A stretch of 32,157 nucleotides of DNA from Verrucomicrobiota bacterium (GTDB lineage: Bacteria; Verrucomicrobiota; Verrucomicrobiia; Opitutales; Puniceicoccaceae): the NCBI GenBank assembly GCA_038744685.1, contig JBCDMB010000033.1, forward strand, positions 1 to 32,157, read 5' to 3'. The notes beneath the pieces are model-generated. The model was given only the letters and a program-made list of their open reading frames with translations. It made no database searches and was not told the DNA's origin. Positions 3,430-28,300 of the stretch are shown one piece after another; position 1 is the stretch's first letter, and every line of letters begins with the position of its first letter. The position numbers and the translations under genes were made by a program.

Positions 3430-4977
3430 ATGAGTGAACCAATTGAAACAGATATTGCCATTGTCGGGGCTGGCATCATGAGCGCTACCCTTGCAACTAT
3501 GCTCCGTCAGATCGACCCGAGCCTGCGCATTATCATTTACGAGTCCCATAATCGTGCTGGTCTTGAGAGTTCAAACGCGATGAACAACGCCGGAACGGGA
3601 CACGCAGGTCTATGCGAGCTCAATTACACTCCGGCAGGTGCAGACGGTGACGTGGACGTTTCCAAGGCCAAGAGAATCTTCGAGGACTTTGAGACCACGA
3701 AGCAATTCTGGGCACATCTTGTCGAATCCAAGGTTCTCCGTGATCCCGAGTCTTTCATAACGGCAGTTCCTCACATGAGTTTCGTATGGGGTAAAAACAC
3801 TTACTACCTCAAGCGCCGCTTCGAGAATATGAGGGGCCACCACTTTTTCTCCGATATGGAGATCACCGAAGATTGGGAAAAAGCGCAGGAATGGGCACCA
3901 CTACTGACCGAGGGTCGTGACAGGAAGCAGGAATTTGCACTGACGCGAGTCCGAGGCGGCACGGATGTCAACTTTGGAAAGCTCACTCGGGAACTCGTGG
4001 CGCACCTCGAGTCGCAGCCCGGTGTAAGTGTTTCTTTCAAACACTCGGTTACTGCAGTCAATCGTGTGGGAGAAAAATGGCATTTGCGTGCAAAGAACCG
4101 AGTGGATCGCTCGACGGTTGAATGCGAGGCGAAGTTCGTTTTCCTCGGCGCCGGAGGGGGGGCGCTTCCGCTTCTTCAGAAATCGGGGATCGACGAAGCC
4201 AAAGGCTTCGGTGGGTTTCCCGTCAGCGGACAGTGGTTGATCTGCTCGAAGCAAGACATAGTCGACCGACATGAGGCGAAAATATACGGCAAAGCCGCCG
4301 TTGGAGCTCCGCCGATGTCGGTCCCACACCTCGACACCCGTTATATCGATGGGAAGCGTTGTTTACTCTTTGGGCCATTTGCTGGATTCTCTCCAAAGTT
4401 CCTCAAATCCGGCTCGCACCTCGACCTGTTGAAGTCGATCAAGCCGAATAACCTGCTCCCCATGTTGGCCGCCGGGAAGGACAATGTCGGCCTGACGATT
4501 TACCTGATCAAACAGGTCCTCCAGTCCAAACGGAAACAAATGGAGGCCGTCAGAGAATTCTTTCCCGACGCACGGGAATCCGATTGGAAACTAGCGACTG
4601 CGGGGCAACGTGTGCAGATCATAAAGAAAGATCCGAAGAAAGGTGGGGTCCTCCAGTTTGGCACCGAGGTAGTCGCCTCTGCTGACGGTTCGATCGCAGC
4701 CCTCCTCGGAGCATCACCCGGTGCCTCCACCGCAGTCGGGATCATGCTCGAGGTTATCGAACGTTGCTTCAAAGAGGAGATGGACTCGGGCAGCTGGAAA
4801 GAACGTCTTCAAGCCATCATTCCTTCCTACGAGAAGGATCTGGACAGAGATGCTGAACTCTACTCCAAGCTACGAAAACGGAGTGACCAGCTACTGAAAC
4901 TTTCTACCGATGACGACTTCGAGGACCAAGTTGAAAAGGAAATTGCTCCGCAACCTCGTCCAAGACAGACCGTTTAA
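3430..4977 (+). CDS. mqo: Malate:quinone oxidoreductase
   Basis: A 515-residue FAD-dependent, membrane-associated dehydrogenase that oxidises malate to oxaloacetate and passes electrons to quinone. The N-terminal dinucleotide-binding motif ([13 protein letters not shown], residues 13-25) is followed by an [15 protein letters not shown] segment typical of the family. The conserved C-terminal FAD-contact region with [30 protein letters not shown] lies near residues 405-435. Length is normal for Mqo. The gene is monocistronic and convergent with the AsnB-like operon, with a hairpin between them. Two degenerate copies of its 3' part lie at 9001-9183 and 10776-11056. It fits a lactate/malate respiratory context with the ldh and lactate permease genes in this window. 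Confidence 0.95.
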
Positions 4978-4992
4978 TACCAGACGGGGTGA

Positions 4993-5020
4993 GGGAGGAA
5001 ATTGCTTTAAAACTCCTCCC
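4993..5020. terminator. Hairpin at the mqo / AsnB-like convergent junction
   Basis: GGGAGGA (4993-4999) pairs with TCCTCCC (5014-5020) around a 14-base AT-rich loop. It lies 16 bases past the mqo stop and spans the stop codon of the minus-strand AsnB-like gene. There is only a weak T-rich run on either side, so a shared bidirectional terminator is plausible but not certain. Confidence 0.45.
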
Positions 5021-6767
5021 TGTTAATTACTAGTCGGCGCCACAGTTCGAAGGTGATTAGCATCCACAGGCGCAAGCCATAGCGCCCATGGCCCTCCTCA
5101 ATGTTGTAGTCGAGCAGTTGTTTAACTCGTGCGTAGTTCCAAATACCTGACTTCTTGAGCACATCTTTGTCGAGAATACGCCTAGACAGGCGCTTGAGCT
5201 CCTTCTCGAACCAAAAGTGAACCGGCACCCTCATTCCACTCTTTGGCCGATCAATTACACTCTTTGGTAACCATCCACGATAGGCTTCCTTCAGAACCCA
5301 TTTCTCGATCCCACGGTGAAACTTCATCCGTCCCGGCATGGCAAAGCTAAGCTCGATTAAACGCGAATCAAAAAGCGGATTGCAGGCCTGCAGCCCATGG
5401 GCACCATACATTCGGTCAACCTTCGGGAGAATAAGGTTTGCACCCTTCATTCGGATGTTGATCGACATGAGCTTGTTCAGAAAGAGCCTTGGTGGCTCTT
5501 GTTCGAAGAACGGTCTGAAGAGCCCCTCAAGATCCCTTACCGGTTCAATGCAACTCGCGAAATCCAAATCCATGAGACGGAAAACCTCTTCGTAGGCTCT
5601 TCGATAAGACTCGAGGTACCAACGTTCCCGATTCCTCGCATCAGAGGGAACACTATACCAATGCTGCAAGAGCATCGGAATAGTCTTCGGCCCACCAAAC
5701 AGGGGATCGCCTCCCTCTCCGTTAAAGGCATAGTCACTAAACTCTGAAGCCAGTTGTGAAATCAAAAAGTTAGGAGCAGTGATCGGATCACCAATAGGCT
5801 CATCCAGATGGCGGATCACGCGGGGGAGTTCAGCTGCCATCATCTTGGGATCCATCTCGACCTCTTCGAGATTCACATCAATTCGTTTTGCCACCTCACG
5901 GGCAAATTCGAGCTCATTCGGGTAATTTTCGCCAAAGTGGATCGCGTAGACCGTCAGCCTCTCGGGACAGAGTCTCGCCAGTTCAGCGGTTACGATACTA
6001 GAGTCCAGACCGCCCGAGAGAAAACTCGCTACCTGGCCTTTTGGAGGAAGTCTATCAACGATGGCCTGGTGCACAAGATCCTGAGTTCTCCTCACCCACC
6101 CTGCTGCACGGGCATCCGTCTCGGGTTCAAAAGCAGTATCGTAGGGATGTTCATATCTCTCAAAGTCGAAAAATGACTGGCACGACTCTACGACTCCGCC
6201 GTCGTTGAAGGTGAATTCCACACACGACCCTGCCACCACCTGGTTCATCTTTTCCAAAGCTGTGCGTGGTGCCGGAATATAACTTAAGCTGAGATACTGA
6301 GCCAAAGCGTCAGGTCGAAGCCGGCGATCAATCCCTGCAGAAACAATCACTGCTTTGGGCTCGGTAGCAAAATAAACCTTACCACCAGCAACTGCGTAAG
6401 CTATTGGAGAATTTCCGGCTGAATCACGCACCAATACCAACCTTCCGGAGAGGAAAACCGCCGCAGAGAATTGACCGTGACAGTCGGAGAAGATGCCCGC
6501 TCCTTCTTTCCGAAAACCATGGAGAAGTTCACTAGCCAAATTGGACCCTCGATCAAAAGGATGTTCAAAAATCGATCCGCAAACGACACAAATGTCCTCT
6601 CTTTCTACATGCAGAGAGTACTCCGGTTCACGACTGAACCGCAAACCGACGCTCATCATGGGAAGAGAAACCACTTTCTGCTCTACACCACGATGGATTA
6701 GATTCGTGCCCATTGGATCAATAGCCACGCTCGCGCCAGGCCCAGCACATCCAAACAGCGCTGGCAC
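5007..6767 (-). CDS. Asparagine-synthetase-like amide ligase lacking the glutaminase Cys2
   Basis: A 586-residue AsnB-family protein. The C-terminal ATP-pyrophosphatase domain is intact, with the PP-loop SGGLDSS (251-257), EPIGDP (323-328) and GEGGDPLFGG (350-359). Such domains adenylate a carboxylate before amide formation. The N-terminal Ntn-hydrolase-like domain is recognisable (LIHRG near 23-27, FSAAV near 100-104, YFATEPKAV near 132-140), but position 2 is Pro instead of the catalytic Cys. A Cys at position 7 is out of register. The enzyme therefore probably does not use glutamine, and its product may not be asparagine; beta-lactam-synthetase- or lasso-cyclase-like chemistry is an alternative. 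The GTG start overlaps the preceding stop by one base (TAGTG), so it is translated from the upstream operon. Confidence 0.85.
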   Translation of the reverse strand: MPALFGCAGPGASVAIDPMGTNLIHRGVEQKVVSLPMMSVGLRFSREPEYSLHVEREDICVVCGSIFEHPFDRGSNLASELLHGFRKEGAGIFSDCHGQFSAAVFLSGRLVLVRDSAGNSPIAYAVAGGKVYFATEPKAVIVSAGIDRRLRPDALAQYLSLSYIPAPRTALEKMNQVVAGSCVEFTFNDGGVVESCQSFFDFERYEHPYDTAFEPETDARAAGWVRRTQDLVHQAIVDRLPPKGQVASFLSGGLDSSIVTAELARLCPERLTVYAIHFGENYPNELEFAREVAKRIDVNLEEVEMDPKMMAAELPRVIRHLDEPIGDPITAPNFLISQLASEFSDYAFNGEGGDPLFGGPKTIPMLLQHWYSVPSDARNRERWYLESYRRAYEEVFRLMDLDFASCIEPVRDLEGLFRPFFEQEPPRLFLNKLMSINIRMKGANLILPKVDRMYGAHGLQACNPLFDSRLIELSFAMPGRMKFHRGIEKWVLKEAYRGWLPKSVIDRPKSGMRVPVHFWFEKELKRLSRRILDKDVLKKSGIWNYARVKQLLDYNIEEGHGRYGLRLWMLITFELWRRLVINREEF

Positions 6768-7252
6768 TACTGATCTCCGGCCTTCGATTCAAGGAAGCCC
6801 GCCAAAGCAGCAGCTTCAGGAGAGAGAGTGCCGCGGGGATTAGCCGCCAGATCCCTAAGAATCTCTAAGGCTCTATTCTCGTTCCCTTCGAGAAGATCGA
6901 TAAAGGCTAGTTTGTAAGAAGACTTCTCAGCCTCATTGGTATTTGGGTAGAGTTCCCGACAGTTCTCAAAGGCGATCCTTGCTGCTGGCAAATCACCCAG
7001 TCCGAGGTCACACTTCGCAACAAAAAAACTAGCCCGACTGGCGAATTTACCAGTTGGTTGCGCGGATAAGTATTCTACAAAGCCCTTCTTCGCCTCAGCG
7101 AATCGGCCCTCCATAACCAACTCGCGAGAGGCTAAAAAAAGGGAGTGATCGTCGGTCAATTCCAAGTCGCAGCCCGTCGCCCCAAACGAAAAGACAAAGA
7201 GAACACTACAGATCAAGACCTTACCCGAACGATGTTTCCAAAGAACTTTCAT
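6767..7252 (-). CDS. TPR-type lipoprotein
   Basis: A 161-residue protein with a basic N-terminus, a hydrophobic h-region and a lipobox GATGC with Cys28 as the lipidation site. Asp at the +2 position would favour retention in the inner membrane by the E. coli Lol rule, though that rule may not hold in this phylum. The mature part is a set of helical pairs resembling tetratricopeptide repeats (about residues 36-155; motifs such as EGRFAEAKKGF and GDLPAARIAF). It overlaps the upstream gene by 32 bases and the downstream AsnB-like gene by one base. A scaffold role for the other products of this operon is an inference from position. Confidence 0.75.
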   Translation of the reverse strand: MKVLWKHRSGKVLICSVLFVFSFGATGCDLELTDDHSLFLASRELVMEGRFAEAKKGFVEYLSAQPTGKFASRASFFVAKCDLGLGDLPAARIAFENCRELYPNTNEAEKSSYKLAFIDLLEGNENRALEILRDLAANPRGTLSPEAAALAGFLESKAGDQ

Positions 7253-8213
7253 TATATTTTTTGGGATTTGCGATAATCGTCTCCAATGGGAGGCCTTGCT
7301 CCGCTGACAAATTGACTCCGTAGACGAGGGCCATGTATGGAATCATATCCACGGAAGCAACTGCAGCTACCTCACGCGAAACCGCCTTCTTTATACCCGG
7401 AAGCATGAGTAATGTTTCGGGGCCGATACCGACATCCACCATTTGAGTGGCTCCCGCGAGAAAGGGCATAGAATCCGTAGACTCAGACTTCATTCTTTCG
7501 AACGACCAGTTCGCATCATGTAAAAAGAGAACTGGAATTTCGGGATTCTCGATCACTAATCGTTCCGCTTGATGCGCAATGTAGCCTGGGTAACCGCTAG
7601 ATGAAACTACCAATGCAGAACCTTCTGCATGAAAGCTATTCATAACGAAAAGGTCGACCAGGATATCCCGGTTCACTATGAGAATCTTCTCCGCGCCATA
7701 ATCATAGATATCGGGCTCTGGCCAGTCGGGCGGTAAAGAATGGAGAGACGGCTTATCAAGAAGTAGCTCGTTACCTCGGCCTGCATCAATCCACTTATCC
7801 AGAGCATCCGAAAGGTCTACTTTCTTCCTGTTCGGGCGCCTTAGGGATAGAACCCAGTAGGACAAAGCAAAAACGGCACCTAGAATACCGATTCCGACTA
7901 AGATCCTCATGTCAGACGGAATCGCATCTGAAAAAAAGATCGAGAGGACCACGGCACCGACCAGACCGAAAACAACACAAGGAATAAATTTGTCTTCAAG
8001 TGTTGTTACTTCGCGACGCAACCATTCAGAGAAGAGCATGTCTCTCGTGTAATGCTTGGTTCCTCCGTAGCTGGCACGATGGATCAGTAGCTTCATTTTG
8101 CCATCGGCGAGGGCGCTTATCTTGGGATTTAGGACAAACTGGTAGGAACACTTCCGGCAGACCATCCCCACGGATCTGTAACTTTGCTGATACCCGCATT
8201 GAGGGCACTTCAT
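7221..8213 (-). CDS. Zinc-ribbon membrane protein with a degenerate Toprim-like domain
   Basis: A 330-residue protein. Two CxxC pairs (Cys3/Cys6 and Cys19/Cys22) form an N-terminal zinc ribbon, and two membrane segments lie at about 77-94 and 103-123. Residues 175-235 read like a Toprim fold of the Spo11/topoisomerase VI A type: strand KILIVN, then GYPG (207-210), then LFLHDAN (229-235). The catalytic Glu expected after the first strand is Asn181, and the DxD motif is DAN, so nuclease or nucleotidyl-transfer chemistry is unlikely. The start overlaps the cupin gene stop in ATGA, and the end overlaps the lipoprotein gene by 32 bases. The Toprim reading is pattern recognition, not proven. Function is unknown, possibly binding a small phosphorylated ligand near the membrane. 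Confidence 0.6.
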   Translation of the reverse strand: MKCPQCGYQQSYRSVGMVCRKCSYQFVLNPKISALADGKMKLLIHRASYGGTKHYTRDMLFSEWLRREVTTLEDKFIPCVVFGLVGAVVLSIFFSDAIPSDMRILVGIGILGAVFALSYWVLSLRRPNRKKVDLSDALDKWIDAGRGNELLLDKPSLHSLPPDWPEPDIYDYGAEKILIVNRDILVDLFVMNSFHAEGSALVVSSSGYPGYIAHQAERLVIENPEIPVLFLHDANWSFERMKSESTDSMPFLAGATQMVDVGIGPETLLMLPGIKKAVSREVAAVASVDMIPYMALVYGVNLSAEQGLPLETIIANPKKYNESSLETSFG

Positions 8214-8935
8214 CGAGTCACCTCCGGAAGTTCAGTCGTCGCAATCTCAGGTTTATTTCTGGCCGATTGTCCTTCGACTATGGTACGGTTGATCATCGGA
8301 TGATCATCATGCGAAGGACCACAATCGCTGTCAGGGTGGAAGGCAATTACCAGAAGTTCCTGATCCATTGTATGAAAGCTGTGTCTTCCGTTAGGCCGAA
8401 TCGCAAAGAGTTTGCCCCGTTCCAGCGGAACGCTTCCCTCCGTTGTGACGCAATGTCCACCTCCACTCACGATCACTCCGGAACGAAGGGTTGGGTGGGT
8501 GTGTTGCGTCTGATCAATCCCGGGCGGAATGTGTAGAAGGTTCAAGCAAGGATCCCCTTTGACCGGAGGACCAATCAACAATGAGTCGGCACAACCGTCG
8601 ATGTAACGAAGGCGTCCGCTTTGCTCAATTGGACCTCCGATGGAAAAAAATCCCCGCCAGTCCAATCGCGTGCTGATCATCACCAAGCCAGAGCTCTCAA
8701 CAACACCACTTGCAGGAAGGGAAAAATACATACCAGCGCGTAGCGAAAACTCACCAGCATCCGTGCACAAAACCGTTTCTCCGTCCTGCACAAAGCCGTA
8801 ATGGGTGCCTTCGCTGGACAGACAAAGCTGCCCGCCACAAACCGCGTAGAGACGACAACCAAACGATTCTGCCGAAAAGTCCGCCAGCAATCCCGTTTGA
8901 GGTTTGAATTCCAGAAAACTAGCGATTTCTCCCAT
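8210..8935 (-). CDS. Double-cupin-fold protein, first gene of the AsnB-like operon
   Basis: A 241-residue protein with two cupin-like halves. The second half carries a metal-binding motif with His145 and His147 (QHTHPTLRSGVIVSGGG) and a downstream GKLFAIRPNGRHSFH with further His residues (185, 188). These suggest one metal site, as in dioxygenase, isomerase or sensor cupins. The first half lacks the His cluster and may be structural. The tail has the motif HPMINRT (212-218). It is the promoter-proximal gene of a four-gene minus-strand operon, and its stop overlaps the next start by four bases. The ATG at 8935 has no clear Shine-Dalgarno. It may act on, or sense, the substrate or product of the AsnB-like enzyme (inference). 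Confidence 0.75.
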   Translation of the reverse strand: MGEIASFLEFKPQTGLLADFSAESFGCRLYAVCGGQLCLSSEGTHYGFVQDGETVLCTDAGEFSLRAGMYFSLPASGVVESSGLVMISTRLDWRGFFSIGGPIEQSGRLRYIDGCADSLLIGPPVKGDPCLNLLHIPPGIDQTQHTHPTLRSGVIVSGGGHCVTTEGSVPLERGKLFAIRPNGRHSFHTMDQELLVIAFHPDSDCGPSHDDHPMINRTIVEGQSARNKPEIATTELPEVTR

Positions 8936-9441: not shown

Positions 9442-10713
9442 GTGAAAAGATTCTTAAAAACTGTGGCTTCTTGCCTGTTCTTTCTCTCTATTTCACAGGC
9501 AGCTGACCATGAAATCCGGACTTGGACCAGCACGGTTGGGAGCACTCTCAACGCCCGGTTGATCCACCATGATAGCGGCTCTGTAACTCTTGAAAGGGAA
9601 GACGGAAGCGTCCTAACAGTCCAGCTCGACCAGCTCTCGGCGCAAGATCGCCACTACGTCGCTACTCTACCTGAAGAAAGGGGCCAGACAACGATTGCCG
9701 GGATCGATGCTCAACCCGGAAAGATCAGTCCGAAGAACCGTTGCGAAAGCGATTCCCAATGGAGCTATCATCTCTATCTGCCTAAGGATTTTCATGACGC
9801 GCGTAAGTGGCCGGTTCTTTTCGTCATGGCGCCAGGAGGAGGCAGCGGCGGCGGCTCGCTCAAACGTTACATCGAAGGTGCGGAGACGTTGGGGTTCATC
9901 CTCGCACTGTCCGTGGAATCTAGAAACGGTTTCGCCAATTCCCATGAAGCTATGAAAGCTATGGTGGAGGATGTCTATGAACGTTTGCCAGTTGCGGAAG
10001 AACTCTCTTTTTCCAGTGGCTTCTCTGGCGGCTCACGGATGGCCTACAGCTTGGCGGAGGACAATCCAAACATCAAAGGCGTGATCGCCTGTGGCTCAGG
10101 CAGTGGCATCTATCCCGAATCTGGAAAATTCCGCGATGCGAAGCTCCGCCGCTCAACCTATGTCTACAGTCTGATCGGCTCCAACTGTTTCAACCGAACC
10201 GGTGCCTACAATAGCCATGAAGATTTCCCTGAACACTTCCGCTTGCGATTTTTTCCGGGGAATCATGTCTGGGCATCGGCTCCATTGATCCAAGAGGCCA
10301 TGGCCCGTGTGCTGGGGGAAGCCCTGAAAGATTCGAGGGAGCCGGTGGCGAAAGAGTTGCGGGACCGTTTTGCCAAGGCCGCATGGAACATGACCCAGTC
10401 CCTGGAAAAAGATCAGCCATGGGAGGCCTACTACTGGGCAGAATTCCTTTCCGATTTTCCCGCCGACCGGGATATCCGAAATCAATCGGTAGCGTTGAAG
10501 AACCGCCTCGGGCGCGACAGCAGAGTGGAGCTAGCCCAAGAAGCAGAGGAAGCAATCGGAGAACTGGGCCGAGAGTTTTACCACGACATTTCCTACCAGA
10601 AGGACCAGCAGGATAATCCCGACCGTCAACAATTTGCGGACCAGCTCGCCTCCGACTTTGAATCCATCCCCCATGCGGAACTCATTCGCAAACTGGGAGC
10701 ACCGGCTCGGTAA
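9442..10713 (+). CDS. Exported SHD1-domain alpha/beta hydrolase
   Basis: A 423-residue secreted protein. A signal peptide (residues 1-20, ending SQA) is followed by an SHD1-like domain (about 24-76, from IRTWTS to LSAQDRHYV), a module common at the N-terminus of exported Planctomycetota and Verrucomicrobiota proteins. Then comes an alpha/beta-hydrolase fold with HLYLPKDF, an unusual glycine-rich oxyanion-region loop (PGGGSGGGS, 131-139) and the nucleophile elbow GFSGGS with Ser195. A GNHVW motif near residue 276 probably supplies the catalytic His. The last 120 residues are helical and charged. The start is GTG 9442. The natural ester substrate, such as a carbohydrate ester or polyester, cannot be told. 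The gene stands between two mqo 3' fragments. Confidence 0.8.
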   Translation: MKRFLKTVASCLFFLSISQAADHEIRTWTSTVGSTLNARLIHHDSGSVTLEREDGSVLTVQLDQLSAQDRHYVATLPEERGQTTIAGIDAQPGKISPKNRCESDSQWSYHLYLPKDFHDARKWPVLFVMAPGGGSGGGSLKRYIEGAETLGFILALSVESRNGFANSHEAMKAMVEDVYERLPVAEELSFSSGFSGGSRMAYSLAEDNPNIKGVIACGSGSGIYPESGKFRDAKLRRSTYVYSLIGSNCFNRTGAYNSHEDFPEHFRLRFFPGNHVWASAPLIQEAMARVLGEALKDSREPVAKELRDRFAKAAWNMTQSLEKDQPWEAYYWAEFLSDFPADRDIRNQSVALKNRLGRDSRVELAQEAEEAIGELGREFYHDISYQKDQQDNPDRQQFADQLASDFESIPHAELIRKLGAPAR

Positions 10714-13020: not shown

Positions 13021-13974
13021 TCACAACCCAACAGCCGAAAGGGATTCGCGCAGGATGTTCGCCGAGGTCGCAAGCTGGGTGACTTCGTCTTCTGAGAGTC
13101 TGATACGGATAATATGGTCGACGCCTTGCCGATGGACCTGGGTGGGTAGGCCCATACAAACCCCCTTCGCTTCAGGGTACTCATCGACAACGAGAGAGGA
13201 AATCGGGAGGATCGCGTTCTCGTCGTTCAGGATCGCCTTAGTGATGCGGACAAGAGACATCCCGATTCCGTAGTAGGTAGCGTGTTTCCGGCGGATGATC
13301 TCCTCAGCCGCATCGCGGACGCTACGGTAAATATGGTCAATTTCTTCCCACTTCAGCAAGGGCGTCTCCTCGATCACTTCGGCGATTGGCTTTCCGCCAA
13401 CCGTGACCCTTGACCAAGCAACAAACTCGCTGTCCCCGTGCTCTCCAAGGACGAAGCCTTGGATGTCGCGGCTGTCGATGTTGAGCCTCTTTCCAATCTC
13501 GTAGCGGAGACGGGCTGTATCGAGAGTGCAGCCCGATCCGATCACTCGCTTTCGATCCCATTCCGATTCGCGAAGGACGACCTGAGTGAGGACGTCCACC
13601 GGATTTGTCGCGACGAGAAAAATGCCGTCAAACCCCGAACCGATTACCTGATCCGTGATTATCCTCATGATTTCGGCATTAACCCGAAGGAGATCGAGGC
13701 GGGATTGGCCCGGTTTCTGCGCTGCCCCAGCAGTGATGACGACAAGGTCGGCATCCGCACAGTCACCGTAATCGCCCGCGTGAATCCTCAACTTTGCGGG
13801 AGCAAAGGGAAGCCCGTGGTTGAGATCCATCGCCTCACCTTCGGCCTTTTGTTTGTTCACGTCGATCAGGACAAGCTCGTTGCCGTAGCCTTGATTCAAA
13901 AGGGAGTAAGCGTAAGACATCCCGACGAACCCAGTGCCGATCAGTGCGATCTTCTTAGAAGTGCGTTTTTTCAT
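13021..13974 (-). CDS. ldh: L-lactate dehydrogenase
   Basis: A 317-residue NAD-dependent L-lactate dehydrogenase interconverting pyruvate and L-lactate. The NAD-binding motif GTGFVGMSYA is near residues 13-22. The loop AAQKPGQSR carries the Gln that marks lactate rather than malate specificity, together with the active-site Arg. GEHGDSE contains the catalytic His. The protein is slightly basic at the N-terminus and of normal family length. It starts 15 bases after the lactate permease gene on the same strand, so the two form a lactate import and oxidation (or export) operon. Confidence 0.93.
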   Translation of the reverse strand: MKKRTSKKIALIGTGFVGMSYAYSLLNQGYGNELVLIDVNKQKAEGEAMDLNHGLPFAPAKLRIHAGDYGDCADADLVVITAGAAQKPGQSRLDLLRVNAEIMRIITDQVIGSGFDGIFLVATNPVDVLTQVVLRESEWDRKRVIGSGCTLDTARLRYEIGKRLNIDSRDIQGFVLGEHGDSEFVAWSRVTVGGKPIAEVIEETPLLKWEEIDHIYRSVRDAAEEIIRRKHATYYGIGMSLVRITKAILNDENAILPISSLVVDEYPEAKGVCMGLPTQVHRQGVDHIIRIRLSEDEVTQLATSANILRESLSAVGL

Positions 13975-13989
13975 AGTGAGAATTGGTGT

Positions 13990-15588
13990 TCAGAAAAGAA
14001 AGGCTGCCGTCGCGATGGCAATCAATCCGTAGAAAAACATCGGTATCGCATTAAACCTTAGGATGCGGCCCTCGTATTGCGAGATACCAAGAATCGCGCA
14101 GATCGCCACGATGTTGTTGATACAGATCATATTTCCCATCGCGCCACCGACCGATTGGAGAGCGAGAATCGTCGAAGTCGAAAGGCCTAGAGCCTCGGCG
14201 GCCGAGTATTGGATACTCCCGAAGGTTAGGTTGGAAATCGTGGCCGATCCGGAAAAGAACGAACCGATAGCGCCCAGGTACGGTGCGAGGAATCTCCAAT
14301 TCTCGCCAACATTCTCTGCCAGGCTCGTACCGATGATGGAGGCTGTCGAATCCGCTCCTCCAGCCATAACCAGCCGCACATAAACGAGCGCTCCCAGCAG
14401 GGCTACGGAGGGCAGAGCCATCATCTTGGCGGTATCCACAAGAGTAGTAGCAACCAACCGAGGTGGACTCCGGTAGAGCAGGAAAGTGATGAAGGAAACT
14501 AGAAAGAAAGGGATCAGCCACGGGATGTAGAGGATTTGAAAAGACCACTCCTCAGCGGTGCCGAAAATCTCCTGCAAAGAGACGACCAATGAGGGACTAA
14601 GGCCAAACCATCCGAGTGAGCCGAGGGTCAGAGACCAGCCTCCAGCCGAATCGGTGAGCAGCGACTTGATTCCCAGTTGCGGAATCCGTGTCAGCAGCAA
14701 GACAAGAACCGTCCCCCAGAGTGGAAACAAAGCCTTAAGAAGTCCGGTTGGGCGCTCAGCGGTCCCTCCCTCCTCCGATTCGGCGGCCTTTTTGAGTCCG
14801 ATTCCCTTGGAAGCAATCCAGATCGACAGGCCGGAACCAATCATTCCGGCGATTAGGGCCGGAAATTCATAGCTAAAAAACCCGAGGACCACGTAAGGAA
14901 CGACACAAGAGGCAACACTTAGATAGATGTAGACGAGGTTTGCTCGGGTTTCCTTCCAACCAACAGTGAAAACAATTCCGAAAAGGGGAATGAACAGAGC
15001 GGCGAACCCATGGATTAAGACGGTCTTAATGCCCACCTCCCGAAGCAATTGCGCCTGAGTATCCGGATCGAGCGTCTCGAGGATTGGGGCGAAGCCATAC
15101 CAAGTCGGCGTGCCAACCGCCCCGAAAGAAACGGGCACGGAATTCATCACCAGACAGAAAACCGCAACCCGCAGAGCCGGGAACCCAAGTCCTACCAGTA
15201 TCGGCCCGGCTAGCGCGGCCGGCGTTCCAAACCCACTGGCCCCCTCGATCATGAAGGAAAACGCCCAGCCAATGATCATGAGCTGGGCGACCCGGCTCTC
15301 CGTCACAGAGTTCAACCATTTGCGAATACGCGGCATCGCCCCGGTCGCCTCCATGGTTTTGAAAAGAAAGATCGCGCCAGCGATGATACTAATCGGCACG
15401 AGGGCTGATAGCAGTCCAAGAACGACAGTCGCATGAACCTCGTTAGGGCTATCCGCAAACCAGATAATCCGCACGAGATACATAATCAAGGCCACCAGCG
15501 GGAGGGCCTTGTGAGAGGCCATCGCCGAAGGCTTCGCCATCCAATAGATGAGAAGGAGGATCGGTAAGACTGCGAAGACAAGATCCAT
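13990..15588 (-). CDS. lctP: L-lactate permease (LctP/LldP family)
   Basis: A 532-residue polytopic membrane protein of the lactate permease family, importing lactate (and often glycolate) with protons. Around a dozen hydrophobic segments are visible. The conserved blocks FMIEGASGFGTPAALAGPIL (about residues 111-130) and GSFFSGSATISNLTFG (near 444-459) are typical of LctP. The ATG at 15588 has a strong Shine-Dalgarno (GGGAGG, two bases before the ATG on the minus strand). The gene is followed after 15 bases by ldh. Confidence 0.92.
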   Translation of the reverse strand: MDLVFAVLPILLLIYWMAKPSAMASHKALPLVALIMYLVRIIWFADSPNEVHATVVLGLLSALVPISIIAGAIFLFKTMEATGAMPRIRKWLNSVTESRVAQLMIIGWAFSFMIEGASGFGTPAALAGPILVGLGFPALRVAVFCLVMNSVPVSFGAVGTPTWYGFAPILETLDPDTQAQLLREVGIKTVLIHGFAALFIPLFGIVFTVGWKETRANLVYIYLSVASCVVPYVVLGFFSYEFPALIAGMIGSGLSIWIASKGIGLKKAAESEEGGTAERPTGLLKALFPLWGTVLVLLLTRIPQLGIKSLLTDSAGGWSLTLGSLGWFGLSPSLVVSLQEIFGTAEEWSFQILYIPWLIPFFLVSFITFLLYRSPPRLVATTLVDTAKMMALPSVALLGALVYVRLVMAGGADSTASIIGTSLAENVGENWRFLAPYLGAIGSFFSGSATISNLTFGSIQYSAAEALGLSTSTILALQSVGGAMGNMICINNIVAICAILGISQYEGRILRFNAIPMFFYGLIAIATAAFLF

Positions 15589-21023: not shown

Positions 21024-21632
21024 ATGAATGTGCGAACCAGGGCTGCGTCTATCGCCACTCTTGCCGGGGCTTCAAGCGCTCACGGAATCATTGTTACCAA
21101 TACCGATCTTGGGTTGAGCGGATTTACCGTCGGAGACGACGGGAGCACCTTTGTCTCTTGGGACATCGACGATACCGGTAGCTCGGAGTTGTTCGTAGTG
21201 GATGAAATTCCCTACATCAATTTTACTAACGCAAGCAATGACTTTAGGGTGCGGGTAACTGGCAATTCCTTGCTCAATCTTGGCGAGGACAACTACGTAA
21301 ACACAGGAAACTTCAAGAATAATGGAATTTCTAGTATCCTCAAGGACGGCGACATCGACAAAGCGGTTGGTTTCGCCAGTGGCGAGAGTGGATACATCGG
21401 GTTCAGCTTTAACTCAGGAGGCTCAACAGTGTTTGGCTGAGCGGAAGTCATCTTAACCGAAGGAAGTAGAGGAGCCCTGGAAGTGTTGCAATGGGCTTAC
21501 GACGACTCCGGTTCAGACATCCGAACCGGCGTGATCCCTGAACCGGAAACGGCGGCAATCGGTCTGGGCGCTCTCGCGCTTGGTGCCGCAGGTCTCCGCC
21601 GGATGCGGAAGCTCAAGTCATCTAGAAGTTGA
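21024..21632 (+). pseudogene. PEP-CTERM protein gene with an in-frame TGA stop
   Basis: The frame runs from ATG 21024 to TGA 21630-21632 (203 codons) except for one internal TGA at 21438-21440. Before it lie a signal peptide (MNVRTRAASIATLAGASSAHG) and a beta-rich domain like other verrucomicrobial sorted proteins. After it the frame continues with AEVIL, a WAYDDSG segment and a C-terminal tag: IPEPETAAIG, a hydrophobic helix, and basic RRMRKLK. This is the exosortase/PEP-CTERM sorting signal. The family usually has Gly-Trp-Ala where this frame reads FG-stop-AEV, so TGA most likely replaced TGG. As read, only a 138-residue product without the anchor would be made, so the protein would be released or unstable. 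A sequencing error is the main alternative. Confidence 0.8.
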
Positions 21633-21955: not shown

Positions 21956-22312
21956 TCAAGATTTCGTGGCCTGACCCTTTCCAGCGATTTTTGACCCTGT
22001 GCGGTTTTTCGCATCACCTTCAGAATCCTTCAGCACTATACAATTAGGCCAGAGCAATCTTTGAGTAAATAAAATCACTGTCCAAAGGATGATTGATATC
22101 ATCAAGTTTTCTCGAACGTTTCGCAGGGTCCCTTTCTGTAACTCAAAAATCATTGAGTTTGTGTTATGCGTGGCCCCCGTTAATCTGTATTGAAGCCAGT
22201 CCGCTTGGTAAGATAAAAAACCGATTAAGCCATTCCCTGCGAGGATTGTAAAGTAGGCCGCAAGTGAATACAAGAAAACGCTCAAAAGCACGCGAGTGGT
22301 TCCAAAAATCAT
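21956..22312 (-). CDS. Small two-helix membrane protein, candidate immunity protein for the RHS protein
   Basis: A 118-residue protein with two hydrophobic segments (about 8-32 and 71-88) and a charged, soluble tail rich in Lys, Gly and Ser. Its ATG overlaps the stop of the giant RHS gene by four bases (22309-22312), so it is translationally coupled to it. A small gene directly after an RHS/polymorphic-toxin end is the standard place for an immunity protein. No immunity family can be recognised, and it could equally be an unrelated small membrane protein. Confidence 0.6.
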   Translation of the reverse strand: MIFGTTRVLLSVFLYSLAAYFTILAGNGLIGFLSYQADWLQYRLTGATHNTNSMIFELQKGTLRNVRENLMISIILWTVILFTQRLLWPNCIVLKDSEGDAKNRTGSKIAGKGQATKS

Positions 22313-25300
22313 TCAGAGTTCTCTGACGGATCGAAGATAGATGAGACAAAGTCAATAGTCGACTCGACAAAATCCGATACGGCACTCTTGATCTTATCAG
22401 TTCCAATCCTGTTAAAAGCGTTGTCAGGAGAGAGATGATCAGTCGGATCCTTCGATTCGAGTTTGTCGATCGAATCAGCAGCAACGCCCGGCGTATCGAT
22501 ACTCGGGGTAATAAGGCTTACCGGGAACCCCGGTTCGGTATCGATTTTTTCGCCCGAAGCAAGTTCCCAGATATCTCTAGCGGATGTAGTGCAATTAGGC
22601 ATCGGTGCATCTGTTCCGGCAATCGTCACCGTTTCCTGATTATAAACAAATGGATCAGTTTCCACGAAAGACCTGATCTCATCCCATTTCTCTTGGGACA
22701 CGATAGTATACCGTGATGACTCAGGAAGTTGTCTCTGAGGATCTTGGAAAATCCTATCAGTTCTGAACTGTCCGTCTTCGACATTAGTTGCAACCTCATT
22801 CCAACGTTGAGCATTCGATGCATCTCCGTCAGGAAACGCATGTATCGTAGTCATAGATGCGGCACTTCCTTTCTGCACTGAGTATGCAGAGTTCCAAGTA
22901 TGACCCTCGTATTCCAAACTACCTTCCGCTGTTGTTGATGAATGAATCCCAATAACCCAATCGTCGAGTCCAAACGGATCAAACTTGGTCCAGGGGTTCT
23001 GGACGACGTATGTATAGACGTTTGGGCCGTCGACGAAGCCGAGTGGATCGCGGGTGATGAAGCTTCCGGTTTCCAGGTCGCGGTAGCGGAAGCCTTCGTT
23101 GAGGAGTCCGGTCGGGTCTTCATCTTTCGTATTGGCCTGCTGGGGATCAGGATTTGTGCCCCACTCCTCCGAGGTGGGCGTATCGCCGTGTTTCCCGAAG
23201 GCTTCGTAGGCGGCTTGATAAGTGAGGACGCCTGACGTGTCGGTCGCGGCAACTACGTCGCCCCGCGAGTTGTAGTGCTTGAAGGACGGCGTGCCAGAGC
23301 GGAGGCTGTAGAGCAGGCCTCCAATCCCGCCTCCGTAGTCCGAACCGCGGATGTATTCCGCATCCGGTGTGGCACTGACTGTATCGATGTGCTCCTGAAC
23401 GGAAAGACCATGAGAGAAGGAAAGAAGATGAAGGTCACGGCCTGCGACCGCACTCTCATCGCGTACTACCCGACGGGTACGGTGGTCATAGGCATACTTG
23501 TAAAGACCCGTATCACTGTCACCTGTCTGGTAGTTGAGCGACACCAGGCGGTTCTCATAGTCATAGGTATAGGTATCCGTTTCGGAACCTTCGGTGCGGG
23601 TGGCGCGGTTGCCGTTGGCATCGTAGGTAAAGGTGATGGTATTGGACCTCTCAGTAAAGGAAACGAGTTGGTTGCTGTTGCCACCGCTGGCGACGGAGCC
23701 GTCCCCATATTGATAGTTTGTGACCTCCTCGGGAGCACTCCCTACCGTTACGCCCTTGCGGGTGCGGTTATTGCCGTCGTCATAGTCATAGTCGGTGACC
23801 TTGGTCGTGCCTTCCGAAAGAATTGTCTCAGTGTCAAGGCGATAGGTTCTATCGTATGCGTTCGTCACCTCCCGGTAGGCAAGGTTTCCTTCTGGATAAG
23901 CTTCGACAATCCGAGCTAGGTTCCCTGCGGCATCGTGATCATAAGTGTAAGAGGCAAACGGATTGCTCGCACCACTGGCGATATTCGTCGAAGTTTTCTT
24001 CCGACCGAGAAGATCGTAGGTGCATTCCACGATCACCCCATTGGCCAAGTCCTTTTGGACGATGTTACCAGCTAGATCATAGTGGTAACCAGTTACCCGA
24101 CCACCCTCGGTCATCGTATCCAATCGGTTCAGCGCATCGTAGGTGGAGACGATCTGGCGAGTAGTCAGACCGTAGGTCGTCGTCCGCAAATTTCCTGCTT
24201 TGTCGTAAGTATACCCGTGGGAAACCCCTGCCGAGGTCTCCGAGGTGATGCGGTTCAGATAATCGTAATCGTTGACGACGGCTCGGACATCAAATGGGTC
24301 CTCCGGGTAGGAAACCGTCTCAATGTTGCCATTTTCATCGTAACCGTAGGTGCGGTTGTCCTGGGAACGGCCTGTGTAGAGCACCTGTTCGAGACGGTGA
24401 AGATGATCATAAAGATACTGGGTAACTTGATCCTTTTCATCCGTCCTCCCAGTCATCACAACAGCGTCATAGGTGTTTGTCTTCGTGCGCTGGAGCTGAG
24501 AACCAAAGTCCCAAATCGTTCGGGTATTCCGAGCCAAGCCGTCGTAACGGAACGCGGTTTGCGCTCCTTCCCCGTCTGTGACAAGGGTTTGGTTACCGGA
24601 GTCATCGTATTCGTAGCGAACGACAATGTCACCGGGAAGGGGATTAGCCGAGTTGGGAGAGGGCTGCCCGTTAACCGGATTCGTGGCCGTGGCAACGAGA
24701 CGGTTGAGGTCATCGTAGGAATTGGTTGTCCGGTTGCCGGCGAAGTCAGTGACCGAGGTGATATTACCGTTCTTGTCGTAGAGAGTGCTCGATGTAAGGG
24801 TCTGGTCGCCGACAAGGCCAAACACAGGAACGGACGAGACTTCGACCTCAAAGGGGCGGTCAGCAAAATCGTATTCAGTAACGGTAGAAAGAAAACGAGG
24901 ATCTACGGTCCGTATCACATTGCCCACGCCGTCGTAGTAGGTCTGCGTGAGAGGACGGGACGAGGCATTGTTAGGATGCGAGGCATCAACGACCTCCGGA
25001 GCAAACTCCTGCACTGGGCGGTTCCGTGCGTCGTAGGTAAAGTCCCATCGCTGGCCACGCGGATTGATAGTGGCCTCTACGTTTCCGGCTGCATCGTAAA
25101 TCGTCTCGGTAACGGGAGATCCGATAAGACCATCTCCGGCGGGCTGGCGGTTGATCTGACCGGTGACGGGATCGGATTGCCAAACTTTGACCGGACGGGC
25201 GGCACCATCGTACTCGGTCTCGGTATAACCGCCTCTGGGATCGGTGACCCTCCAGGCTAAACCAGTGCTGGAAAAGTCAGTGTGAGTGGTGATCGCATCT

Positions 25301-28300
25301 GCAGTCCCAAAGGCATCGGTGACTTTGATCACGCGCCCGAGGCCATCGCGCTCGCTACGGGTGACTTTGCTACGAGGATCCGTGACGGTGGAAACTAGAC
25401 TTTCTTTCCCGAACGAATCGATCGTGCCGTAATCAGTAATAGTGGTCGCGAAATTGCCTGGGGAGTATTCGCTACTGCCGTAGACTTTCCGGTAGTCGGC
25501 GTCATAACGATGATGGCTCTCGAGGGTAAGTAAGCCAGAGGTCGAAAGCACTGCATCGTGCCGGACAATGCGAGTAGGCTTGAAGCCTTCGGAAGCGAAG
25601 GCGCTGGCTCCCGGATTATACTGCAGCTCGTAGAAAAATTCGGTATGGGTTTTTTCCGAGGAGCTTGCCGACGGGTTGTCCCAGTTGACATAGGTTGCCT
25701 CGACTCGCTGGAGATCATCATACTCGTGACGGGTGACAATGCCTCGCGGATCGGTTACCCTTGAGAGCGAACTAACGGCATTGTATGCCAATTGCGTTCT
25801 AATGTCGGCAGGCGTGTAGCTACCGCGGTTGTCTTCCAAAAGAATCTGCGGCGCTGTTTCTGCGGGCAAGTTAGGTAGACCAAAGCCATCCATGTCCTGA
25901 ATGACCCCAGTGCGGCGATTGAGGGCATCGTGGTGATATAAAGTATAGCGACCCTCTTCGTCGACGACACAGGCAAGGTTGCCACGGGCATCATAAAGTC
26001 GGCGGACATGAGTGATCCCTACGTCGGAACTCGTACCCGCTGCCGGATAAGAAGTCTTAACGAGGCGGTTGAGCGAGTCGTAGGTGAATACGGTTAGGTT
26101 GTCTCGCGGATCAAGAATCGATGTGCGGTTATTATTGAGGTCGTAATTATATTCGGTAGTCAGAGACAGACCGCCGGGATCGACGATCTCCTTCCACAAC
26201 CTTCCACGCGAATCCGGCTCGTACTCGGTAACCAAATCTTGCTCCCAGGATTGGCCGCTGACATTGGCAAAGGCAACCACCCGTTTCTCTCTCATGAAAC
26301 CTTCAAAGCCAGCTGTAGTATCAAAGACATAGCGTTCCTCAAGAAGCTTCGTTCCCGACTCATCGAGAATCGTCATATCCTTTCGTCTACCCATCTCGTC
26401 CACGTCCCATTGAGTCACCGTTCCATGAACATCTTCCACTCGTGACATTACGCGCCAAGGGCCATACTGATAGGTTTCCACGCGGCCCAAGGCGTCGGTT
26501 TTAGAGGTGGGGTCCGACCACCGGGTCATAAAAGTAGGTTCCGACTCAATGACGGGAACCTCGGTCTCGGGAGGAATCGCGTCTTCGAAGGACCAAGTGG
26601 TGGTATTCCCCGACAGGTCTGTCATTGAGGACAAGGCTAGGCCTGACGGCAAATCGAATACGAAAGTCTCCGAACCGACGTCGCTATGCTCAATGGTCAT
26701 CGTGGTGTAGTAAATCATCCAGTCAGTGGAGACCGGAACCACTCCAAAGGACCCCTTTGTATCTACGTCGACGATTTCGCCATGGATTCCCTCAAAGCGG
26801 TAGCGGGTCTCATTGCCGAGCGTATCGGTAACGACTGTTCCCGAACTCGCACTGAATTCCGGACCAAATATCGTTTCAGACTCCGGCGTCTTCGCGAAGG
26901 TGCTCGTGCCCTCTTCTCCTGGGAGAACAACAGATCTCACTTGTCGGGGAAGGCCGTATTGGTCTCTAAACTCGCCTTCGAACGAAGAATCACCAAATCC
27001 GTTCATTTCCTGTAGCTGTGAAATTACGCAGCTTTGAACATCTCCTGGCAACTCATTGAACTCTCCTGAAGATACTCCAATCCGAAAGGTCCCAATACCA
27101 ATTTGGGAGCTTTCGACCCAATACGCCTTCGTCCGGTCAAAACCATATTCAAAATTATACGTGTTGCCTCGTTTATCCGTAACCGATGAAAGGTTCGCAT
27201 GATAATGCCAAGTGATCTTGCCATCCGAACCGACTTCCTCGTCAACTGCTACTTCGTAGCCATAACTACGCTCGGTTCCATCCGAAAATTGCACGGCGTC
27301 AAGAGTGCCATAATCATAGATGATTCCGTCGCTCGAAATAAGGCCTCCATCTCCCGGTGCAGATACCTGATTGACTGAATAGATGAATTCGGTCGTTTCT
27401 CCGCGGGCATCAGTTATCGACTCCACGCGGCGACCATCTTCGCTTCGAACAATAACAAGCCATTGATCATCCCGGTCCACTGCTTCAATGAGTTCCGGTA
27501 TCAATGACACTCGGGAAGAACCATAATCATACAGAATCCGATTTCCGTAGCGGTCCTCGACTTCCTCTAACCTCCAATAGGTGCTGCGACGAAGTGCTCC
27601 ACCCGCAATCCGATCCGACGAATACATAAACCAGGCATCGCACGGCCGGTAGGTCAGCTTGGTGCCAAACTTCTTGATCAAAACCAAGTCGTCGCCTTCA
27701 CGAACCAATTGGTTCAACCAAGTCTTTTTATCGACCCGAGAAGAGGGCCATGGAAAAAACTCTTGCTGGTTCGCCGTACCAAAACGCTGGCTACGGCCTC
27801 CCTCATCGACCACCGTGACCGAAATCGGATCCGAGGTAAAATCCTCGAGAGTTTCTGTAATCTCAATGTAGGCGCAGAGATTGGAAGTCCAGCCGACGCC
27901 GAAAGGAAGCGTCAAACTCTCGATTGGGCGTAATCCGTTGCGATTACTCCATCCAGTTTCACGCACGGAAGCGTTTGCCTCCAGCACGAGATCGCTGGCT
28001 GCCAAAGGAACGTAAGCATAGGAGGTATCGTGACGGAGGCTAAGGTCAAATGCGTCAACGTATGTCTCCTCCTGATAGCTTTCGGTCTCGTCCTCCTGCT
28101 CGGGCTTCTCATCAGGTGCCGGTCGTCCATTTAAATACACCTTGCGATACCTGGGACCCACTGCGTCACTCCCCGAGAAACTTTGGGAGAAACCGCTGCT
28201 TGCCGAAGTGATCGGGACCAAATAGGTCCTCTTGTCGACCCAATACTCATCGGGTTGATCGTCCATTTCAAACTCTCCTTGCATTCCGTCCGGATCGCAG

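Follow-up and report, generated by a model that had tools for sequence, protein, structure and literature searches.

What might a cupin, a membrane protein with a zinc ribbon and a Toprim-like domain, a TPR lipoprotein and an AsnB-like ligase do together? The question is raised by a 32,157-nt stretch of DNA from a Verrucomicrobiota bacterium (assembly GCA_038744685.1, contig JBCDMB010000033.1, positions 1 to 32,157 of the forward strand; here called the window), in which four minus-strand open reading frames (ORFs) follow one another between 5007 and 8935 in the order cupin, ZnR (our name for the zinc-ribbon/Toprim membrane protein), TPR lipoprotein and AsnB-like ligase, with successive overlaps of 4, 32 and 1 bp. 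A first-pass annotation had given this layout, and its coordinates and overlaps proved exact; its domain calls were also borne out, the cupin by PF07883, ZnR by its ribbon, helices and Toprim-like domain, the third protein by weak TPR profiles and a lipobox, and the ligase by PF00733. We conclude that the cassette is real, self-contained and apparently undescribed, and we tentatively favour reading it as a membrane-based, ATP-driven amide-ligation system in which, to judge from sequence, the substrate would lie on the ZnR tail and the ligase would activate its terminal Gly. A literature search, with subscription journals mostly outside its coverage, found no description of the cassette.

Conservation and distribution of the cassette

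Scanning genome contigs with ZnR yielded eight loci, from Planctomycetota, Verrucomicrobiota, one Bacteroidetes metagenome-assembled genome (MAG) and one 'Proteobacteria' MAG, and whole-genome searches added G253 (from the window's own class), G310, G1280 and G1351; family counts refer to 12 loci or members, the window included. The order cupin, ZnR, (TPR), AsnB is kept in nearly all of these loci at roughly 25-55% protein identity, and its retention at such divergence across several phyla shows that the arrangement is no accident. The cupin is missing beside two of the 12 (L008 has no adjacent cupin, and in L021 ZnR and the ligase stand alone as a two-gene core). The TPR lipoprotein is found at only four: the window, L003 (carried by Aeoliella straminimaris ICT_H6.2, a named strain according to its record), L005 and L028. 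On these counts we rejected it as a core gene; the conserved unit is three genes, cupin, ZnR and AsnB, with the TPR lipoprotein optional. The expectation that four families would recur together in unrelated genomes holds for cupin, ZnR and ligase but not for the TPR protein, and the four-gene unit first described has to be trimmed accordingly.

That the core genes work as one unit, as had been proposed, agrees with their distribution in Pirellulales. Across a 196-genome sample, the ligase family (E<=1e-100) and the cupin family (E<=1e-10) matched exactly the same five genomes (G286, G289, G290, G1280 and G1351), and these same five were the ZnR holders in a 296-genome search of Pirellulales. 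The three families thus co-occur without exception in the 196-genome sample, and scattering of the genes, which had been named beforehand as the contrary outcome, was not seen in the sample tested. ZnR and ligase divergences also correlate (r=0.84, species history not controlled for).

Carriage is rare and patchy: two of 286 genomes of the window's class carry the cassette and one genome of the same genus does not, and elsewhere there are a handful of carriers per several hundred genomes. Neighbouring genes are not common to the loci, and no other biosynthetic gene recurs beside the cassette. A plasmid search gave no relative of ZnR and none was confirmed in viral contigs, on which grounds we rejected a mobile element. 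Nor did a known anti-phage defence system find support among the PADLOC models, where the matches were to QueC and TPR at E about 0.04, with none for ZnR or the cupin. ZnR-profile matches in G453, G945 and G1306 proved to be zinc-ribbon-only or short and spurious, and were discarded. At L029 (a 3.3-kb contig of G1351 that includes an unresolved stretch) the ligase is divergent from cupin-ZnR, which may be an effect of assembly.

The ligase keeps a synthetase site and has lost its glutaminase residues

To judge what kind of enzyme the ligase is, we compared residues on E. coli AsnB numbering between the 12 cassette members and 19 usable canonical-type sequences (L047 and L070 were left out, since the chosen ORF was not the AsnB frame). 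Cys1, present in 18 of 18 canonical-type sequences with a complete N-terminus, is replaced by Pro, Ser, Gly or Ala in every cassette member, none of which retains the glutamine pocket (R49, N74, E76 and D98) either. All 12 keep the ATP pyrophosphatase loop (PP-loop) SGG[LI]DS, E348, D351 and the catalytic lysine K449, and the ligase thereby carries the PP-loop, Glu/Asp and Lys residues of the AsnB-fold ATP-dependent amide ligases (Asn_synthase superfamily). The region that reads DE(352)...GGY(357) in AsnB, and [ED]...GY in all 19 canonical-type sequences, is DP...GGPK in 12 of 12 cassette members, which also have another residue in place of the Arg in the canonical ExRxP motif. Because the synthetase residues are kept and the glutaminase residues lost, the ligase should bind ATP and activate a carboxylate, and it should not draw ammonia from glutamine; its acceptor pocket appears to have been rebuilt.

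The cassette enzymes form a single clade with support of 1.0 and a long stem, apart from the other AsnBs of the same genomes. The closest solved structures are a hydroxyamidotransferase, AsnB and beta-lactam synthetase, and the window's ligase falls below the cutoffs of the named models in this superfamily: 199.5 bits against 267.1 for the AsnB equivalog TIGR01536, 76.5 against 525 for the lasso cyclase NF033535, 188.9 against 816.9 for the XrtA/PEP-CTERM amidotransferase TIGR03108, and 181.8 against 570.1 for the NAGGN amidotransferase TIGR03104. The loss of glutaminase residues together with the sub-cutoff AsnB score led us to reject a housekeeping AsnB, a strong match to which the first-pass annotation had named as a contrary outcome; on its residues, the cassette ligase is not an ordinary asparagine synthetase.

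We examined whether the operon could nevertheless make asparagine, or be a cluster for a ribosomally synthesised and post-translationally modified peptide (RiPP) such as a lasso peptide, with its precursor missed. The ligase is the sole full-length Asn_synthase protein found in the window's genome (97.8% complete), which has no full-length canonical AsnB, and its sub-threshold matches include both the AsnB and the lasso cyclase models. Yet the catalytic Cys and glutamine pocket are gone throughout the family, most other carriers own separate canonical-type AsnBs, and no conserved small ORF lies within 700 bp of the 12 loci. With no precursor and a cyclase score so far below its cutoff, a RiPP or lasso system was rejected, and we regard this pair of explanations as highly improbable. 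Asparagine in the window's genome is presumably made by another route.

ZnR is a membrane protein with an invariant C-terminal glycine

The model of ZnR made with AlphaFold2 (AF2) has a predicted local distance difference test score (pLDDT) of 81. Its third domain was assigned to the Toprim fold on sequence profiles and VIA re-alignment, because Foldseek alone gave no significant match (best E 0.18). Against PF21180 (TOP6A-Spo11_Toprim) the window's ZnR alone is a weak match (E=0.015), while 10 of 10 aligned members match, the best at E=1e-7; the best fold relative is TopoVI-A (1d3y; Z 8.1, 4.2 Å over 130 residues), with other Toprim proteins next. In ZnR the acidic triad has degenerated: the Glu position holds N, D, Q or E, and DxD has mostly become HDA. 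We therefore rejected a catalytic Toprim nuclease or topoisomerase. Since other residues are invariant in its place (YDYG, VD, N192, H195, YPxY, H232 and D260 are examples), the domain likely has a binding role other than nuclease chemistry. The ZnR family plainly illustrates how a Toprim domain can lose its acidic site and find another use within a membrane protein.

Beyond this domain lies a disordered tail whose length and sequence differ among relatives, and conservation is confined to its last two residues, which always form the free C-terminus. All 12 proteins have Gly at position -1, and Phe (11) or Tyr (one) at position -2; position -3 is Asp, Ser or Gly, with little conservation from -4 inward. 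Among 191 other local ORFs, one ends in [FY]G. The Phe/Tyr, Gly and stop codons all vary, from which it follows that selection acts on the protein and its free C-terminus; the same variation led us to reject a Shine-Dalgarno origin of the ending. The absence of a precursor gene had been taken to speak against a plain RiPP cluster. It stands as far as a conserved small ORF nearby is concerned, but it overlooked a candidate substrate inside the operon, the [FY]G end of ZnR itself. Some ZnR tails are repetitive (L007, 4852-5889, GGWFGHDGGWFGDDAGWGGDDAGDFG; L008, 1665-2657, DDFDDFDDFDDFG), as though several copies of the end motif had accumulated. Elsewhere in the window, at 21024-21440 on the plus strand, a 138-aa ORF with no Pfam match ends in ...TVFG; it is the sole other local ORF above 100 aa with an [FY]G ending, by chance or as a second tail protein.

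Another way to view the tail, and the strongest rival to its activation, is as a short linear motif to which the ligase (or the cupin) would bind and so be kept at the membrane, where the ligase would join small molecules, one of them supplied or modified by the cupin. Docking motifs typically look like this, a conserved dipeptide at the end of a disordered and often acidic tail, as in bacterial SSB, and the cupin does resemble small-molecule enzymes. However, the fixed last residue is Gly, which offers no side chain to bind and is typical of activated C-termini, and a small-molecule pathway sits poorly with the lack of any other biosynthetic gene recurring beside the cassette. Docking is a real possibility, if somewhat doubtful on this balance.

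The cupin, the TPR lipoprotein and possible tail amidation

The cupin matches PF07883 (E=9e-10), and its AF2 model is a bicupin (pLDDT 84) whose fold matches are DUF861 (1sfn, Z 19.0), ureidoglycine aminohydrolase (4e2q, Z 17.8) and BacB (Z 17.2). Alignment places in it a metal-type HxH...H motif (HxH at residues 145-147 plus H185) and a segment peculiar to the family, HPDSDFGP...HPM. Its chemistry cannot be read from the modelled fold. The internal SD[F/C]GP motif resembles the DFG end of ZnR, which may be coincidence. The TPR protein combines weak TPR profiles with YbgF/BamD-like matches, and a lipobox-like ...FGATGC predicts lipid attachment at Cys28.

An ammonia-releasing enzyme among the cupin's fold matches (the aminohydrolase) raises the question of whether the ligase might amidate the ZnR C-terminus at Gly330, or make a nitrile there, with free ammonia that the cupin would perhaps release locally. 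PesC, TsrC and ScdTA amidate peptide C-termini, and PesC takes ammonia instead of glutamine (PMC13060819). However, known amidating enzymes keep the E-Y dyad that the cassette ligase has lost, and the cupin shares only 15% identity with ureidoglycine aminohydrolase and is not present beside L008 and L021. We consider tail amidation improbable.

Proposed mechanism

Built on the observed genes, their linkage, the residue losses and the conserved tail, the mechanism that we infer would begin with adenylation by the ligase of the terminal Gly330 carboxylate of the ZnR tail, probably at the cytoplasmic face of the membrane. An amine, for which a protein amine, a lipid head group and a small molecule are candidates, would then attack the adenylate to give an amide. 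A probable role for the bicupin is to make, modify or sense this amine, or else to regulate the reaction. In some species the optional TPR lipoprotein may connect the system with the cell envelope. We propose Gly330 as the site because AsnB-like enzymes act on peptide C-terminal carboxylates and the constant partner of this one has an invariant Gly end. Consistent with this proposal are the strict co-occurrence of the three families, the correlated divergences of ZnR and ligase, the existence of L021, the lack of the dyad's Glu in beta-lactam synthetase (which uses an internal amine), the restriction of tail conservation to its free end, the retention of the synthetase site alongside loss of the glutaminase residues and the E352/Y357 dyad, and the want of a separate conserved precursor ORF nearby.

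Several points weigh against tail activation. In PesC a dyad (E363-Y368) has been proposed to position the C-terminal carboxylate, and precisely this dyad is replaced in the cassette family, so that the carboxylate chemistry of its ligase may differ from that of PesC. The conserved dipeptide fits a docking motif equally well, and all 12 tails are homologous and hence not 12 independent observations.

Tail activation also admits a bolder form, in which a dead-glutaminase AsnB-type enzyme would adenylate the C-terminal Gly of ZnR and join it to protein or lipid amines, a bacterial tail conjugation outside the ubiquitin fold and a counterpart of Atg8 lipidation assembled from components unrelated to it. 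We consider this form unlikely. It would be far more novel than a ligase-variant reading and is still a proposal; as enzymology, the cassette is a variant among AsnB-like ligases. If tail activation is true, the pairing of an AsnB-type ligase with a membrane protein bearing an invariant Gly end would extend AsnB chemistry to entire proteins, and might provide a new route of protein conjugation via a C-terminal glycine. It is a hypothesis that singles out one residue, ZnR Gly330, and a single enzyme. Of the protein-modifying system at the membrane first suggested, the membrane link stands and the protein modification is plausible.

Features and neighbouring genes

The operon is flanked on one side by Mqo (3430-4977, converging) and on the other by a divergently transcribed gene at 9442. 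Elsewhere in the window, a lactate/malate dehydrogenase-family gene adjoins an L-lactate permease gene (13021-15588, minus strand), apart from Mqo, and 22309-30963 (minus strand) encodes a 2884-aa protein with RHS repeats and bacterial TSP3 repeats.

Table 1. Genes and features of the cassette in window coordinates.
Feature	Position	Strand	Evidence
Cupin gene (241 aa)	8210..8935	-	PF07883, alignment, structure model
ZnR gene (330 aa): zinc ribbon, membrane hairpin, Toprim-like domain, disordered tail	7221..8213	-	Alignment, profiles, model
ZnR zinc ribbon, residues 1-26, CxxC...CxxC	8136..8213	-	C3, C6, C19, C22 invariant in alignment
ZnR two predicted membrane helices, residues 72-124	7842..8000	-	Hydropathy peaks in 12/12; model helices 72-93 and 100-124
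ZnR Toprim-like domain, residues 164-309 (about), acidic triad degenerate	7287..7724	-	Profile and fold matches
ZnR disordered tail, residues 322-330, ending Phe329-Gly330-stop	7224..7250	-	pLDDT<50; [FY]G in 12/12
TPR lipoprotein gene (161 aa), optional	6767..7252	-	Weak TPR profiles; 4/12 loci
AsnB-like ligase gene (586 aa, GTG start)	5007..6767	-	PF00733 (Asn_synthase), E=1e-68
Ligase degenerate glutaminase domain, about residues 1-200, Cys1 replaced by Pro	6168..6767	-	Residue comparison, 12/12
Ligase PP-loop SGGLDSS, residues 251-257	5997..6017	-	Invariant in cassette members apart from L/I
Ligase DP..GGPK, residues 354-361, in place of canonical DE..GGY dyad region	5685..5708	-	12/12 vs 0/19

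Comparison with known systems

Taken singly, the proteins of the cassette have recognisable relatives. ZnR shares its Toprim profile and fold match with TopoVI-A/Spo11, but its acidic triad is degenerate and the domain is fused to a zinc ribbon and a membrane hairpin. The cupin has the two-barrel fold of DUF861, ureidoglycine aminohydrolase and BacB (Z 17-19), but at 13-16% identity and with its own HxH...H and HPDSDFGP...HPM segments.

Enzymes with the AsnB fold are known to make asparagine, beta-lactams and lasso peptides. Beta-lactam synthetase, CarA and lasso cyclases have a non-functional glutaminase and, like the cassette ligase, an AsnB fold with an intact synthetase site. Beta-lactam synthetase also lacks the dyad's Glu and uses an amine within its own substrate. 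The cassette ligase aligns only partially with beta-lactam synthetase (100.8 bits) and CarA (61 bits), and unlike the lactam and lasso systems the cassette has no lactam, lasso precursor or leader peptidase genes. More recently the fold has been linked to changing the C-termini of small peptides: PesC, TsrC and ScdTA are AsnB-like enzymes that modify ribosomal peptides at the C-terminal carboxylate, and for PesC adenylation has been demonstrated (PMC13060819). With these the cassette shares the AsnB fold and, as a proposal, ATP activation of a ribosomal product's C-terminal carboxylate. They differ in acting on small precursor peptides and keeping the E-Y dyad, with PesC using glutamine, whereas the cassette ligase has lost its glutaminase residues and dyad and is partnered by a 330-aa membrane protein.

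The other comparison is with the conjugation of Atg8, Atg12 and ubiquitin-like proteins. Processed Atg8-family proteins end in FG or YG. The C-terminal Gly of Atg8 is adenylated and joined to phosphatidylethanolamine (PMC12005411). Unlike these systems the cassette has no ubiquitin fold, E1, E2 or E3; Pfam and structure searches of it gave no ubiquitin (beta-grasp) or E1 domain, and instead a zinc ribbon, a Toprim domain and an AsnB fold. The analogy is one of mechanism only: in Atg8-type systems, and under our proposal in the cassette, an amine at the membrane receives an adenylated C-terminal Gly.

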